Assembly: GCF_001679785.1 (NCBI RefSeq)
Contig: NZ_CP016286.1
Location: 2,604,001 to 2,668,000 of the forward strand
Direction of reading: 5' to 3'
Length of the DNA: 64,000 nt
Origin: Rhizobium leguminosarum
Lineage (GTDB): Bacteria; Pseudomonadota; Alphaproteobacteria; Rhizobiales; Rhizobiaceae
Both the position numbers and the translations under genes were made by a program. The notes under the pieces were generated by a model. The model was not told the origin of the DNA. It ran no database searches and saw only the letters and a list, made by a program, of their open reading frames with translations. Numbering within the stretch: position 1 is the stretch's first letter; the number at the start of each line of letters is the position of its first letter. This document shows positions 5,496-49,483 of the stretch, in pieces.

Positions 5496-6950
5496 TTATC
5501 TGGTCGCCGTCATAAGCCGCTGGATTTTCAGCATATCTTCGCGAAATCGCGCCAGCTCTTCCGCCTTCAGCCGCTCGTCGGGAATACGTAGCAGATAGGA
5601 CGGATGCACCGTCACGAAGAGCGTTTGCTTCTCGTCGATCGCGATCGCTTTTCCCCTGACATCCTGCAGCCGCTGTTTTGCATCGGTCAGCGCCGCAAGC
5701 GCCGTCGCCCCCATGGCAACGACCAGCTTTGGCTTGATCAGCGCCATCTCCAGATTGAGCCACCAGCGGCAATGCTTCACCTCGCCCATATTGGGCTTCT
5801 GATGGATTCGACGCTTGCCGCGCGGCTCATATTTGAAATGCTTGACGGCATTGGTGACGTAAAGCATTGAGCGGTCGATGCCGGCTTCAATGATCACCTG
5901 GTCCAGCAGCCTACCGGCGGGCCCGACGAAGGGGCGCCCTGATATATCCTCCTGGTCGCCTGGCTGCTCGCCGACGAACATCACCTCTGCATCGCGCGGC
6001 CCGTCCCCGAATACGGTTTGCGTCGCCTTCGCATGAAGCGGACAACGGGTGCAAGCGGCAGCTTCCGCGCGCAGTGCTTCCAGCGTGCCCGCCGGCGCTT
6101 CGGGTTCAGCAGGAATGCTGCGCGCGGCTTCCTGCAGGCGATCGTGAAAGGGCAACGACTGGGTCGCCTCCCTTGCAGCCATGGCCCGCACCTTGCTCTC
6201 CGCCGATGCGATCAGCCCAGGGATGAGATCGGCTTCCGGCAGGTTCTTCCAGTATTTTTTCGGCATCTCAGCCTGCATCGCCTTCAGCTTCAACCGCGCC
6301 GGATTGAAAATGCTGGCATAGTAGGTGCGCCAGAGGTCATCGGTAGCATCGGTAAGATTGGGTTTTTCACACGGTTCGTCGCTCATCGTCAGCCGCTCGC
6401 CGTCCCAGGCGGCCGATCCCCTGGGTGTGGCGATCAGCCAGTCCATGTCGGTGAAGCGCCGTTGGAAGAAGGGCGCTGTGCGCCTGACGATATGATGATC
6501 CGGCTCGAACCAAGCGAGGAATTTTCGACGGTCCGCCGACACCGCACCAACCTCCTTGAAGCGGACGAAGGCCGTCATCTTATGCGCGTCGCGCCGAACG
6601 TTTTTCGCCATCAGCCTTGCACGGGCGACGTCCTCGTCGGAGGCCACTTCAAGCAGCTGCCGGTCCAACTGCAGCCGCCAGAGCAGATGGTAAAGCAGGG
6701 AAAAACGAGCCGGGTCGGAATGGCAGAGCACTGTCTCCGCCAACTCGATGAAGGCGGGCGGCACTGTCATCGGCTTGCGTGCTGCGGCAGACGTAGGCGG
6801 CATGGCGTCGTGTTGAAACGCTAAACCCGGCTCAGCGCGTTTTTCGCGCCACTCGATCTCCTCCGGCAGGATGCCGGCGACCGCGAAAGCGCGCGCGGCG
6901 TCACGCCATTCGGCAAGCTCCCCGCGTCCTGCCAGCACGACCCGGCGCAT
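5496..6950 (-). CDS. DUF4130-UdgX fusion, uracil-DNA binding/glycosylase family protein
   Basis: The 484-residue protein joins an N-terminal DUF4130 domain (about residues 1-250) to a C-terminal UdgX uracil-DNA glycosylase-superfamily domain (about 290-480). UdgX hallmarks are intact: GEQPGDQED near 327-335, the KRRIH loop at 379-383 whose histidine forms a covalent link to the uracil-derived abasic site in characterised UdgX, and the HPSYLL motif near 449. Cys300, Cys303 and Cys394 are candidate Fe-S ligands. The ATG at 6950 shares one base with the stop of the upstream radical SAM gene (TGATG), indicating translational coupling; a GTG one codon earlier is also possible. Likely SOS-induced through the LexA box at 8188-8202. 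Role: handling of uracil or other modified bases in DNA. Confidence 0.92.
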   Translation of the reverse strand: MRRVVLAGRGELAEWRDAARAFAVAGILPEEIEWREKRAEPGLAFQHDAMPPTSAAARKPMTVPPAFIELAETVLCHSDPARFSLLYHLLWRLQLDRQLLEVASDEDVARARLMAKNVRRDAHKMTAFVRFKEVGAVSADRRKFLAWFEPDHHIVRRTAPFFQRRFTDMDWLIATPRGSAAWDGERLTMSDEPCEKPNLTDATDDLWRTYYASIFNPARLKLKAMQAEMPKKYWKNLPEADLIPGLIASAESKVRAMAAREATQSLPFHDRLQEAARSIPAEPEAPAGTLEALRAEAAACTRCPLHAKATQTVFGDGPRDAEVMFVGEQPGDQEDISGRPFVGPAGRLLDQVIIEAGIDRSMLYVTNAVKHFKYEPRGKRRIHQKPNMGEVKHCRWWLNLEMALIKPKLVVAMGATALAALTDAKQRLQDVRGKAIAIDEKQTLFVTVHPSYLLRIPDERLKAEELARFREDMLKIQRLMTATR

Positions 6951-8181
6951 CACAGCAACGACAATTGTTCGGGTTGTGGTTCGAACATGGCGCGAAGGTC
7001 GGGGCGCTCGATCAATCGGCGCGGCGACCAGCCTTCCGCCGAGATGAAGGACTGGACCTTCTTGATCGAAATGCCGAGCCGCTGGAGATCATCGAGCCGC
7101 AACCGGCGAAAACGGCGGGCCGAAACGATCGCTTTGACTGTCTTGGTGCCGAGACCGGGCACACGCAGCAACCGCTCGCGCTCGGCCCTGTTGATATCGA
7201 CGGGAAATTCGGCCCGGTTGGCGAGCGCCCAGGCAAGCTTGGGGTCGAGGGTGAGATCGAGCATGCCGCCCGCCTGGTTCGCGGTGATCTCGTCGATGCC
7301 GAAACCGTAGAATCGATAGAGCCAGTCGGCCTGATAGAGCCGATGCTCGCGCATCAACGGCGGCTTGATCAGCGGCAGGTTTTTCGACGAGTCCGGGATC
7401 GGGCTGAAGGCGGAATAATAGACGCGCTTCAGCCCGTAGCTGCTGTAAAGCCGGCCGCTGGTCGCAAGGATCGTCGCATCGTTCGCGCCGTCGGCGCCGA
7501 CGATCATCTGCGTGCTCTGGCCGGCCGGCACGAAACGCTGACGCTTCTTCGTCCTGAGCGTCGGTTCGCCGGCGGCCTCGATCTTCAGCCTCAGATCCCC
7601 ATCGATCGCCGAATATTGGCAGGCTTCTTTTCCGGCGCAAAGCGGGTAATGCCGTTATCCGTCGGCAACTCGATATTGAGCGACAGCCTGTCGGCATGAA
7701 GCCCCGCCTCTTCGATCAGACGCGGCGACGCCTCAGGGATCGACTTCAGGTGAATATAGCCGCGGAAATTATGCGTCACGCGCAGTTCGCGGACGATGCG
7801 GACCATCTCTTCCATCGTGTAATCGGACGAACGAATGATGCCGGAGGAAAGGAACAGGCCTTCGATATAGTTGCGTCGGTAAAATTCCAGCGTCAGCCAG
7901 ATGACCTCCTCGGGCGTAAAGCGCGCCCGTTCGACATTGCTCGACGAGCGATTGACGCAATAGGCGCAGTCGTAAATGCAGAAATTGGTCAGCAGTATTT
8001 TCAAAAGCGAAATGCACCGTCCGTCCGGGGCATAGGCATGACAGATGCCGAATCCCTCGGTCGAACCGAGCCCGCCACTTGCCCGGGAATCACGTTTCAC
8101 CGTGCCGCTGGAAGCGCAGGAAGCGTCATATTTCGCGGCATCGGAAAGAATGGCCAAGCGTTCTGTGAGCGACTTCTTCAT
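6950..8181 (-). pseudogene. DNA modification/repair radical SAM protein, broken by a 1-base frameshift
   Basis: The two halves belong to the putative DNA modification/repair radical SAM family that regularly partners UdgX. The N-terminal half (ATG 8181) carries the radical SAM motif CX3CX2C (Cys68, Cys72, Cys75; CIYDCAYC). The C-terminal half has a helix-hairpin-helix (LLRVPGLGTKTVKAI). At the GGGG run on the minus strand (7597-7600) the reading changes: the first frame reads SMGI and stops at 7591, while the -1 frame continues as DLRLKIEAAGEPTLRTKKRQ into the second half. Restoring one base gives about 410 residues, the usual family length. The site does not look like a canonical slippery heptamer, so a real null mutation or a sequencing error is more likely than programmed frameshifting. 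A GTG at 8193 could add four residues. Confidence 0.85.
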
Positions 8182-8187
8182 TAGTAT

Positions 8188-8202
8188 GTTCACTATATGT
8201 TC
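8188..8202. promoter_or_regulatory. LexA (SOS) box upstream of the radical SAM-udgX operon
   Basis: GTTC (8188-8191), seven bases, GTTC (8199-8202): a perfect match to the alphaproteobacterial LexA operator GTTC-N7-GTTC. It sits 6 bases upstream of the ATG at 8181, where bound LexA would block transcription. It is far (over 120 bases) from the likely greA promoter, so it most likely controls only the leftward repair operon. Confidence 0.85.
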
Positions 8203-8324
8203 TTATGTGCAGAGTCAATCAGGACGGTCCGATTTCTGCCCATTTTCAAGTCGCACCACCCAATATCGGGGCAAGCCGCGTTTCTTTTATGCGAATTTTC
8301 TGGAAATCGGCCTTGGCGATCTGC

Positions 8325-37682: not shown

Positions 37683-37768
37683 GTCGTTCAGCCTTCGTTC
37701 AGCTACAGATCTGTACCACTGTAACCATCGAGAAAGGAACCGGCGTTCGGTTCCGGGATTAGGATTTT

Positions 37769-38413: not shown

Positions 38414-39260
38414 TGGGGCATGGAGTCGGCTTCGGCATCGAAATCGGTCGAGACGCTGACGGTGCGCCACATCCGATCAGCTTCGATACGCGCCGCATCC
38501 GCCTTTTCGACATTGCGTAGCGCATCGCTGCCGAGCAACAGCCGGAACGGCGGCTCTTTGAGACCGGCGATGTGGATGACGACCGCAGCCGCTTTGGCAG
38601 GATCGCCAGGCTGGCGACCATCGTATTCACGCTGGAAGCGCACCGTGGCGCCGACCGTCTCCGCATAGTCCTGCCGCCCTTCGGCAAGCACCGTCGAGGA
38701 GCCGGCGAAATCGGTCCTGAAGCCGCCGGGCTCGATCACCGTCACCTTGATCCCGAATGGCGCGACCTCCTTCGCCAGCACCTCGGAAAAACCCTCGACA
38801 CCGAATTTCGCCGCCGAATCGGCGCCGCGCCCGGCAGGTCCGATCCGGCCGCCGACGGATGAGAACTGGATGATGTGCCCAGCTCCCTGCCCGCGCATCA
38901 GGGCGATAACCGCCTTGGTCATGATGATCGTGCCGAAGAGGTTGGGCTCGATCTGGGCTCGAAAATCGGCGAGGCTGGTATCCTCGATCGAGCCGACATT
39001 GCCGTAGCCGGCATTGTTGACAAGCACGTCGATGCGCCCGACCGCTTCACACCCGCCTCGACTGCCGCCGCTGCCGCCGCCTCGTCGGTCACGTCAAGCG
39101 CCAGCGTCAGCACCTGATCGCCATACCGCTCGGAAAGATCGGCAAGCTGGCCGGGATCGCGCGCTGTCGCCACCAGATTGTCGCCGGAGGCCAAAACCGC
39201 CTCCGCCAGTGCCCGGCCGAGACCGCGCGAACTCCCTGTTATCAACCAGACCCTGGACAT
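38368..39260 (-). pseudogene. Short-chain dehydrogenase/reductase, frameshifted
   Basis: The first part (ATG 39260, with GGAGGG upstream) is a classical SDR N-terminus with the TGSSRGLGRALAEAV nucleotide-binding motif. After VEAGVKR (minus strand, around 39041-39045) the frame is lost, and the remainder continues in another frame as IDVLVNNAGYGNVGS (the SDR NNAG motif), FSSVGGRIG and onward; the position of the usual Tyr-x3-Lys is occupied by DSAAKFG, so the Tyr may also be replaced. Adding one T (CGG TTC GGG CGC) restores a continuous protein of about 297 residues. The final residues, TILGPIGLKSES, are encoded by the mosaic repeat. Divergent from an HxlR gene. Confidence 0.82.
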
Positions 39261-48382: not shown

Positions 48383-49483
48383 ATGACCACCGCTCTAGGC
48401 GAAAAGATCAAGGCGATTATCCAGGCCAACGGCCCGATCAGCGTCACCGATTATTTCTCGCTCTGCCTCGCAGACCCCGAACACGGCTATTACCGCACCC
48501 GCGAGCCCTTCGGCCGTTCCGGTGATTTCGTCACCGCGCCGGAGGTCAGCCAGATCTTCGGCGAGATGATCGGCGTGTTCATCGTCCATGCGTGGCAGCG
48601 CCATGGCACACCGACAGACGTCCGCCTCGTCGAGATCGGCCCCGGCCGCGGCACCATGATGGCCGACATGCTGCGCGTCATCTCCCGCATCGCTCCACCG
48701 CTTTTCGACGCCATGACCGTGCATCTCGTCGAAACCAGCGAGCGCCTGCGCGATGTCCAGAGCCAGACGCTCGAACCCCACGGCGAGAAGATCACCTGGC
48801 ACGATGGCTTCGACGAAGTACCATCAGGCTTCACGCTGATTGCCGCCAACGAACTCTTCGACGCCATCCCGATCCGCCAGTTCGTCCGCATGCCGACGGG
48901 GTTCCGTGAGCGCATGGTCGGTATCGACGCCGATGGCGAGCTGACTTTCGCCGCCGGCGTCGCCGGCCTCGATCCTACCTTGCTGCCCGAACCGGTGCAG
49001 AACGTGCCGGTCGGCACCCTCTTTGAGATCTCGCCTGCCCGCCAGGCGGTGATGATGGCGATCTGCGAGCGGCTGCGCGCCTTCGGCGGCACGGCGCTTA
49101 CGATCGACTACGGCCATCTCGTCACCGGCTTCGGCGATACGCTGCAGGCCGTGCGCATGCATGAATTCGACCCGCCGCTCGCCCATCCCGGCGAAGCCGA
49201 TCTGACGAGCCATGTCGACTTCCAGCAGCTCGCCGAAACGGCGCTTGCGGCCGGCCTCCATCTGAACGGCGCCCTGCATCAGGGTGATTTCCTGACCGGT
49301 CTCGGCATCCTCGATCGCGCAACCGCCCTCGGCCGCGATCGCGAGCCGCAGACCCAGCAGGTCATCCAGGCGGCGGTCGAAAGGCTCGCCGGCGCCGGTG
49401 AAGGCCGGATGGGCGAACTCTTCAAGGTGATGGCGGTCTCCTATCCCGCCCTCGATCTCATGCCCTTTCGTCCGGTGGATTGA
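48383..49483 (+). CDS. MidA/NDUFAF7-like SAM-dependent methyltransferase (COG1565)
   Basis: The 366-residue protein has the family opening ISVTDYFSLCLADPEHGYY, the SAM-binding motif VRLVEIGPGRGTMMADMLR, and FTLIAANELFDAIPIRQFV. The mitochondrial orthologue NDUFAF7/MidA methylates an arginine of complex I subunit NDUFS2; a role in complex I assembly is therefore likely but unproven here. It begins 18 bases after lgt. Confidence 0.92.
   Translation: MTTALGEKIKAIIQANGPISVTDYFSLCLADPEHGYYRTREPFGRSGDFVTAPEVSQIFGEMIGVFIVHAWQRHGTPTDVRLVEIGPGRGTMMADMLRVISRIAPPLFDAMTVHLVETSERLRDVQSQTLEPHGEKITWHDGFDEVPSGFTLIAANELFDAIPIRQFVRMPTGFRERMVGIDADGELTFAAGVAGLDPTLLPEPVQNVPVGTLFEISPARQAVMMAICERLRAFGGTALTIDYGHLVTGFGDTLQAVRMHEFDPPLAHPGEADLTSHVDFQQLAETALAAGLHLNGALHQGDFLTGLGILDRATALGRDREPQTQQVIQAAVERLAGAGEGRMGELFKVMAVSYPALDLMPFRPVD

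Follow-up and report, generated by a model that had tools for sequence, protein, structure and literature searches.

The locus treated here is a candidate DNA-repair operon, a radical SAM gene followed by a DUF4130-UdgX gene, in a 64,000-nucleotide stretch of Rhizobium leguminosarum DNA (contig NZ_CP016286.1, positions 2,604,001 to 2,668,000; this whole stretch is called the window below). Its radical SAM/helix-hairpin-helix family is, we presume, COG4277. The closest described system is the COG1573-COG4277 operon of Bacteroidetes, a two-gene, SOS-controlled operon with a uracil-DNA glycosylase (PMC8565304); the available portions of that paper also trace the same control to earlier work in Verrucomicrobia and Alphaproteobacteria (Erill 2016; da Rocha 2008). 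The likeness lies in the two genes, in the pairing of a uracil-DNA glycosylase-family protein with a partner, and in LexA control, which is a prediction for the present locus. The differences are that DUF4130 is the constant component here and UdgX an optional one, that CTGT-N8-ACAG and Gram-positive-type operators are also found, and that the copy in the window is frameshifted. SOS control itself is therefore known already. As far as literature searches reach, the additions are its alphaproteobacterial extent, the operator of other Pseudomonadota, an operator logic that follows DUF4130 and not UdgX, and the broken copy. Comparison of promoter sequences lends strong support to SOS control of the operon, and the reading we favour, at somewhat better than even chances, is a LexA-repressed DNA-repair operon in which the radical SAM protein and DUF4130 would be the working core and UdgX an add-on.

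Other known systems resemble parts of this locus. The NCBIfam trio TIGR03914, TIGR03915 and TIGR03916 is matched in all three members, with the difference that the radical SAM match is split and each half falls below its cut-off. UdgX of Mycobacterium smegmatis is a stand-alone protein, and others have shown that mycobacterial UdgX removes uracil and forms a bond with the abasic site that this leaves. Its solved chains (PDB 6l6s, 6iod, 6ajo and others) have about 210 residues, whereas here UdgX makes up the C-terminal half of a fusion with DUF4130 and carries Tyr after HPS. SOS genes resembling SplB (spore photoproduct lyase) have LexA sites of two different motifs in alpha- and betaproteobacteria, according to the available part of PMC3323433, and they share with the present case both a radical SAM DNA-repair protein and the two-motif argument for LexA. 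However, SplB (COG1533) is a separate family, set apart from COG4277 in the portions of PMC8565304 covered, and the strong match here is to TIGR03916, besides a weak, sub-cut-off match to HydE. A radical SAM protein, its family unspecified in the available text, belongs to SOS regulons of Gram-positive bacteria and Balneolaeota (PMC7739468); the likeness is a radical SAM gene under LexA, again predicted here. In PMC3765255 DUF4130 is a predicted mutagenesis-related enzyme and a figure legend links it with SplB-like radical SAM proteins and uracil-DNA glycosylases; the portions covered mention no LexA boxes at this operon. The words radical, operon, SOS, LexA and DUF4130 do not occur in the text covered of the UdgX papers PMC10359453 and PMC10776899.

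The operon lies on the minus strand. Its LexA operator (8188..8202) reads GTTCACTATATGTTC in the window and GAACATATAGTGAAC on the gene strand, where it is the direct repeat GAAC-N7-GAAC. The sequence-only reading had reported a perfect GTTC-N7-GTTC box 6 bases ahead of the radical SAM start, and the sequence agrees, with 6 bases between the box and the ATG at 8181. By itself the pattern has 3 occurrences in the window where 1.95 would be expected, and 32 of 100 shuffles gave at least 3. The match alone is thus at chance level, and the evidence rests on position and conservation. The two further matches, at chance frequency, are at 37686-37700 and 48989-49003; in three close relatives the former is identical in 3/3 and the latter in 2/3. 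Because these other matches are conserved there as well, conservation of the operator in the three near strains was set aside as uninformative. Elsewhere in the window's genome (G000), GAACATWTNNNGAAC is found in one other place only (L120, G000:C1:2711945-2711959).

Two wider samples are more informative. The near set consists of the 80 best-matching loci out of at least 575 relatives. The phylum draw comprises 398 genomes, from which all 83 loci with a full-length radical SAM gene were fetched (54 alphaproteobacterial, 29 from other Pseudomonadota); the genomes in the draw are mutually related, so Fisher values overstate significance, and the families bearing a strict or loose box number nine in Alphaproteobacteria and five outside them. 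Looking for GTTC-N7-GTTC at orthologous operons had been proposed together with the initial reading, and the box is indeed found there. In the near set a perfect copy lies within 200 base pairs in 77/80 loci, and at 74 of these it stands 17 to 22 bases ahead of the start. In the draw it is present between -120 and +15 in 54/54 alphaproteobacterial loci (9 families), while each of five 135-base control windows at the same 54 loci gave 0/54 and the background 2 of 2106 windows. Of the 29 other loci, 19 carry a different LexA-type box, CTGT-N8-ACAG in its strict form (background 5/2106 windows), and 24 carry the loose form CTG-N10-CAG. The strict beta/gamma box is absent from all 54 alphaproteobacterial promoters, and the alpha box from all 26 of the 29 others that were tested for it.

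These comparisons bear on whether the box might have arisen by chance or be an ordinary promoter element, and no LexA operator. Such an explanation would draw on the three patterns found in the window where 1.95 are expected, and on a conserved core that resembles a -10 element. Set against it are the 54 alphaproteobacterial loci with none in the controls, the different LexA-type box at 19 of the 29 other loci, and the published SOS control of this operon type (PMC8565304, portions available), and we regard it as very improbable. A chance match as such is ruled out by the control windows and the 2106-window background. The proposal that an SOS operator ties the operon to DNA damage is, at the level of sequence comparison, well supported.

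A probable -35 element, TTGAC (8214..8218, minus strand), precedes the box by 16 bases on the gene strand, and among 118 distinct promoters TTGAC stands at -16 in 58, at -18 in 12 and at -17 in 3. The A+T core of the box probably holds the -10 element. LexA is encoded in the same genome, and GAAC-N7-GAAC also stands upstream of lexA itself. Sixteen equal-score matches in G000 (contigs C1, C2, C5 and C8) share one 108-residue frame with a weak LexA-like helix-turn-helix; these copies look like a multi-copy insertion element.

There are 168 matching plasmid and phage records (158 + 10), of which 17, hand-picked for spread, were inspected. The alpha box was found in 4/4 alphaproteobacterial records and CTGT-N8-ACAG in 2/2 betaproteobacterial ones, and GAAC-N4-GTTC was sought in the remaining 11. 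Two perfect boxes of this kind lie in gut scaffold L246. With a single mismatch, two occur in L232, one in L240 (Acetoanaerobium) and one in Spirosoma L238, the last taken as chance; seven other scanned records have none within 160 bases. In L247 one perfect box lies 190 bases upstream, and perfect Gram-positive-type boxes are present in 2/5 gut scaffolds. Since alpha, CTGT-N8-ACAG and Gram-positive-type boxes are found at their respective loci, the predicted operator type changes with LexA specificity. Boxes of the Xanthomonas, Bacteroidetes and Verrucomicrobia types were absent from the 16 loci scanned. Apart from GTTC-N7-GTTC, GGA-N5-TCC and CTAA-N5-TTAG, the LexA box patterns used in the scans are general background knowledge. 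Those three are as given in the available portions of PMC8565304, which also report two Bacteroidetes motifs upstream of such operons; these motifs are absent from the two Bacteroidetes loci inspected.

A phage origin of the operon was considered and rejected. Six of the 10 phage matches were inspected: one is annotated and adjoins glyS/glyQ, and five are unannotated faecal scaffolds. Scans of viral contigs with the Acetoanaerobium protein and with one gut-scaffold protein gave no relative. The phage-labelled records are probably, if not provenly, bacterial DNA. Record L231 (CAKLQH020000003.1), labelled Acinetobacter phage, has the operon beside glyS/glyQ and looks like a misfiled bacterial chromosome.

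Several observations weigh against a LexA-controlled DNA-repair operon. Three of the 80 near loci miss the perfect box (one has a single mismatch, two have none within 200 bases), and 5/29 non-alphaproteobacterial loci (f37, f85 and three of f46) lack every box type tried. The loose CTG-N10-CAG also occurs by chance in 5/54 alphaproteobacterial loci within 250 bases. No perfect box of the kinds tried was found at the Bacteroides, Spirosoma, Fusobacterium, Gemmatirosa and Acinetobacter copies, and recA of the window's genome has one-mismatch boxes only. The TTGAC-TATAGT spacing is 15, below the usual 17, which makes the -10 register uncertain, and 45 of the 118 promoters are without TTGAC. For the low-confidence predicted model of the radical SAM protein, the fold matches listed are mostly nucleotide, peptide and cofactor enzymes, with no DNA-repair enzyme seen among them. 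At three loci of f46 (L157, L158 and L162, one genus) a TCTCAT/ATGAGA palindrome precedes the radical SAM start by about 20-45 bases, at the place of LexA boxes elsewhere; possibly it is the site of another regulator.

The distribution of the three domains indicates which of them the operator goes with. DUF4130 is over its cut-off in 84/84 genomes that have the radical SAM gene, among them the window's genome with its split copy, while UdgX is over its cut-off in 63 of them and not in 21; one of these 21, G390, has a degenerate UdgX-like domain. DUF4130 without radical SAM occurs in three genomes, and UdgX with neither partner over cut-off in 13. A same-strand DUF4130 match lies downstream of radical SAM in 158/160 loci, and the 15 commonest spacings, from -20 to +62 bases, cover 146 of these 158; in the other two loci the match is about 3 kilobases downstream on the same strand. 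Among the 152 complete DUF4130 partners (another six run off the end of the fetched sequence), 125 are fusions of more than 400 residues and 27 are shorter and consist of DUF4130 alone. In those 27 operons the box is strict in 21, loose in 2 and absent in 4. DUF4130 genes without radical SAM have the alpha box in 3/3 cases, 146 to 219 bases upstream. The stand-alone UdgX genes (from the 13 genomes, plus a second copy in the window's genome) have a box in 1/14 only, and that one (G074, L217) is a deletion remnant in which the box is followed by a DUF4130 tail and then by UdgX. G074 has lost radical SAM and most of DUF4130 and kept the box, which gives a naturally occurring UdgX-only gene preceded by an SOS box. 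Boxes at DUF4130 genes without radical SAM, and mostly none at lone UdgX genes, therefore place the operator with the radical SAM-DUF4130 module. A box that follows UdgX is ruled out by the 13 unboxed genes of the 14.

The sequence-only reading had called the UdgX/radical SAM partnership recurrent and had suggested that the radical SAM protein may modify or repair a base which UdgX recognises. The partnership holds in 63/84 genomes; UdgX as its core does not, the constant partner being DUF4130, and the suggested chemistry is not supported as a core function, given the 21/84 genomes without an over-cut-off UdgX and the 13 with UdgX and neither partner over its cut-off. A broader proposal would still put UdgX at the centre, with radical SAM and DUF4130 processing or resolving the covalent UdgX-DNA adduct or making the base that UdgX recognises. 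The overlap of the genes, the fusion of 125/152 complete partners to UdgX and the capture His kept in 123/125 fusions would fit it. The same pair without over-cut-off UdgX, UdgX without over-cut-off partners, and the operator retained by most DUF4130-only operons argue the other way and leave this proposal improbable.

The second gene of the operon, the DUF4130-UdgX fusion (5496..6950, minus strand), has DUF4130 at about residues 1-241 and UdgX at about 242-476. Its identification as such a fusion stands, both curated cut-offs being exceeded (TIGR03915, 216 bits vs 112.25; TIGR03914, 350 vs 189.95). The UdgX part contains GEQPGDQED, in which the GEQPG motif A with its Gln is present, KRRIH (His383) and HPSYLLR. 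KRRIH, earlier described as an intact covalent-capture loop, can be aligned with the corresponding loop in solved UdgX structures. HPSYLLR fits motif B, HPS(S/A)(L/V)(L/V)R as defined, together with motif A and the capture loop, in the available portions of PMC10359453, at all positions save the Tyr, where Ser or Ala is published. The TGATG stop/start overlap noted between the two genes is present (6948..6952, minus strand); the arrangements seen most often among 158 relatives are a 4-base overlap (73) and a 1-base overlap (46). DUF4130 gave no fold match of its own among the matches listed, which is uninformative, the domain having not been folded alone. Two side observations concern UdgX elsewhere. 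The second, stand-alone UdgX of the window's genome (G000:C4:89439-90005) is without a LexA box, and in the fusion of L139 (G158) the UdgX part seems frameshifted, with a profile match that starts at position 99 in another frame.

Membership of the first gene product in the radical SAM superfamily is indicated by CX3CX2C and by PF04055 in its first half (31 bits vs cut-off 29.5). Cys68, 72 and 75 of CX3CX2C are present in 160/160 relatives, and altogether six cysteines are invariant in all 160, the three extra ones being 22, 47 and 56. Residues 14-86 of the predicted model fall below a predicted local distance difference test score (pLDDT) of 50, so the geometry of the extra cysteines cannot be judged from it. 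A helix-hairpin-helix motif and a radical SAM barrel were detected, the barrel partly from the low-confidence model. Spore photoproduct lyase is not among the profile matches, nor among the 50 fold matches listed from each search with that model. In Foldseek, viperins head the matches to the model (best E 5.7e-4). They would suit a radical SAM enzyme that modifies a nucleotide, as viperin does, or another post-damage metabolite, and not DNA; such small-molecule chemistry seems to us rather unlikely.

The radical SAM gene of the window is broken. The sequence-only reading had treated it as intact, but the frame that begins at 8181 stops at 7591 and the remainder continues in another frame from about 7600 to 6950. 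The first half (7591..8181, minus strand) covers positions 1-189 of the TIGR03916 profile and includes CX3CX2C, with the stop after the frameshift; the second half (6950..7600, minus strand) covers about 191-394 with the helix-hairpin-helix. As open frames the two reach 316.2 bits (profile positions 1-189) and 228.2 bits (positions 212-394), each below the cut-off of 343.5. The one-base frameshift (7597..7598, minus strand) is placed by comparison with three close relatives that match this part at 95% identity; against them, one base is missing near 7597. This split copy is the only copy of the gene in the genome. Elsewhere the gene is intact: at the 80 nearest loci the frame is open over 408 to 413 residues, the TIGR03916 cut-off is reached in 83/398 genomes of the draw and all 83 of those copies are open, and none of the 398 genomes but the window's has two strong half-matches. 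A named R. leguminosarum record with the same neighbours (greA, carB) has the gene annotated as unbroken. A programmed frameshift is ruled out by the open frames of the near set and the draw.

It is about evenly balanced whether the frameshift is real, with the strain losing the system, or is an assembly error; this side question is compatible with any of the readings above. To gauge assembly quality, 264 kilobases of the window's genome were compared with one relative, in which 222 reference frames have at least 150 residues. An orthologue of more than 85% identity was found for 182, of which 162 are full length. Of the 20 others 17 were examined, and many are antisense frames or differences near misplaced starts; among the cases that were resolved, a real shift with normal codon bias was seen in three, perhaps four, of the 17, the radical SAM gene and a short-chain dehydrogenase gene of the window included. 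Errors are thus not rampant, which speaks for decay, as does the frame being broken both in the window and in the window's genome. Single missing bases, on the other hand, are also common as sequencing errors, and the frameshift rate in the 264 kilobases does not discriminate between error and decay. The 42 substitutions in the radical SAM gene relative to the relative fall at third (36), first (5) and second (1) codon positions, which points to selection on the gene until very recently; the loss, if real, would be very recent. The short-chain dehydrogenase gene (window about 38426-39260, minus strand) has a one-base frameshift near 39040 relative to a close relative. The window's own copy is unsuited to function tests without re-sequencing.

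For the LexA-repressed DNA-repair operon, the following course of events may be proposed. In undamaged cells LexA would sit on the box, which in this layout overlaps the -10 region, and transcription would be blocked. Upon DNA damage, RecA triggers self-cleavage of LexA. A message with a very short leader, or a leaderless one, would then be made. It would encode the radical SAM protein with its C-terminal helix-hairpin-helix and, via the overlapping start, DUF4130, here fused to UdgX. The radical SAM-DUF4130 pair would most likely carry out a radical reaction on damaged DNA, and UdgX, as a separable add-on, may shield or mark abasic sites. In this genome there may be a sequencing error, or else the product would be a truncated radical SAM enzyme and probably less DUF4130-UdgX.

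A more far-reaching form of this proposal, which we offer tentatively, is that radical SAM and DUF4130 constitute a core SOS function in its own right. The pair would repair DNA by radical chemistry, cysteines 22, 47 and 56 perhaps binding a second iron-sulphur cluster, and would be kept under at least three LexA operator types; UdgX would be a later recruit, lost again on repeated occasions. DNA repair by a radical SAM enzyme in growing cells would, if true, be rare. The comparative data turn what was guilt by association into a testable prediction, that the operon is damage-induced. They also suggest that the minimal working unit would be radical SAM with DUF4130, not UdgX, and that species without UdgX may offer the cleaner system.
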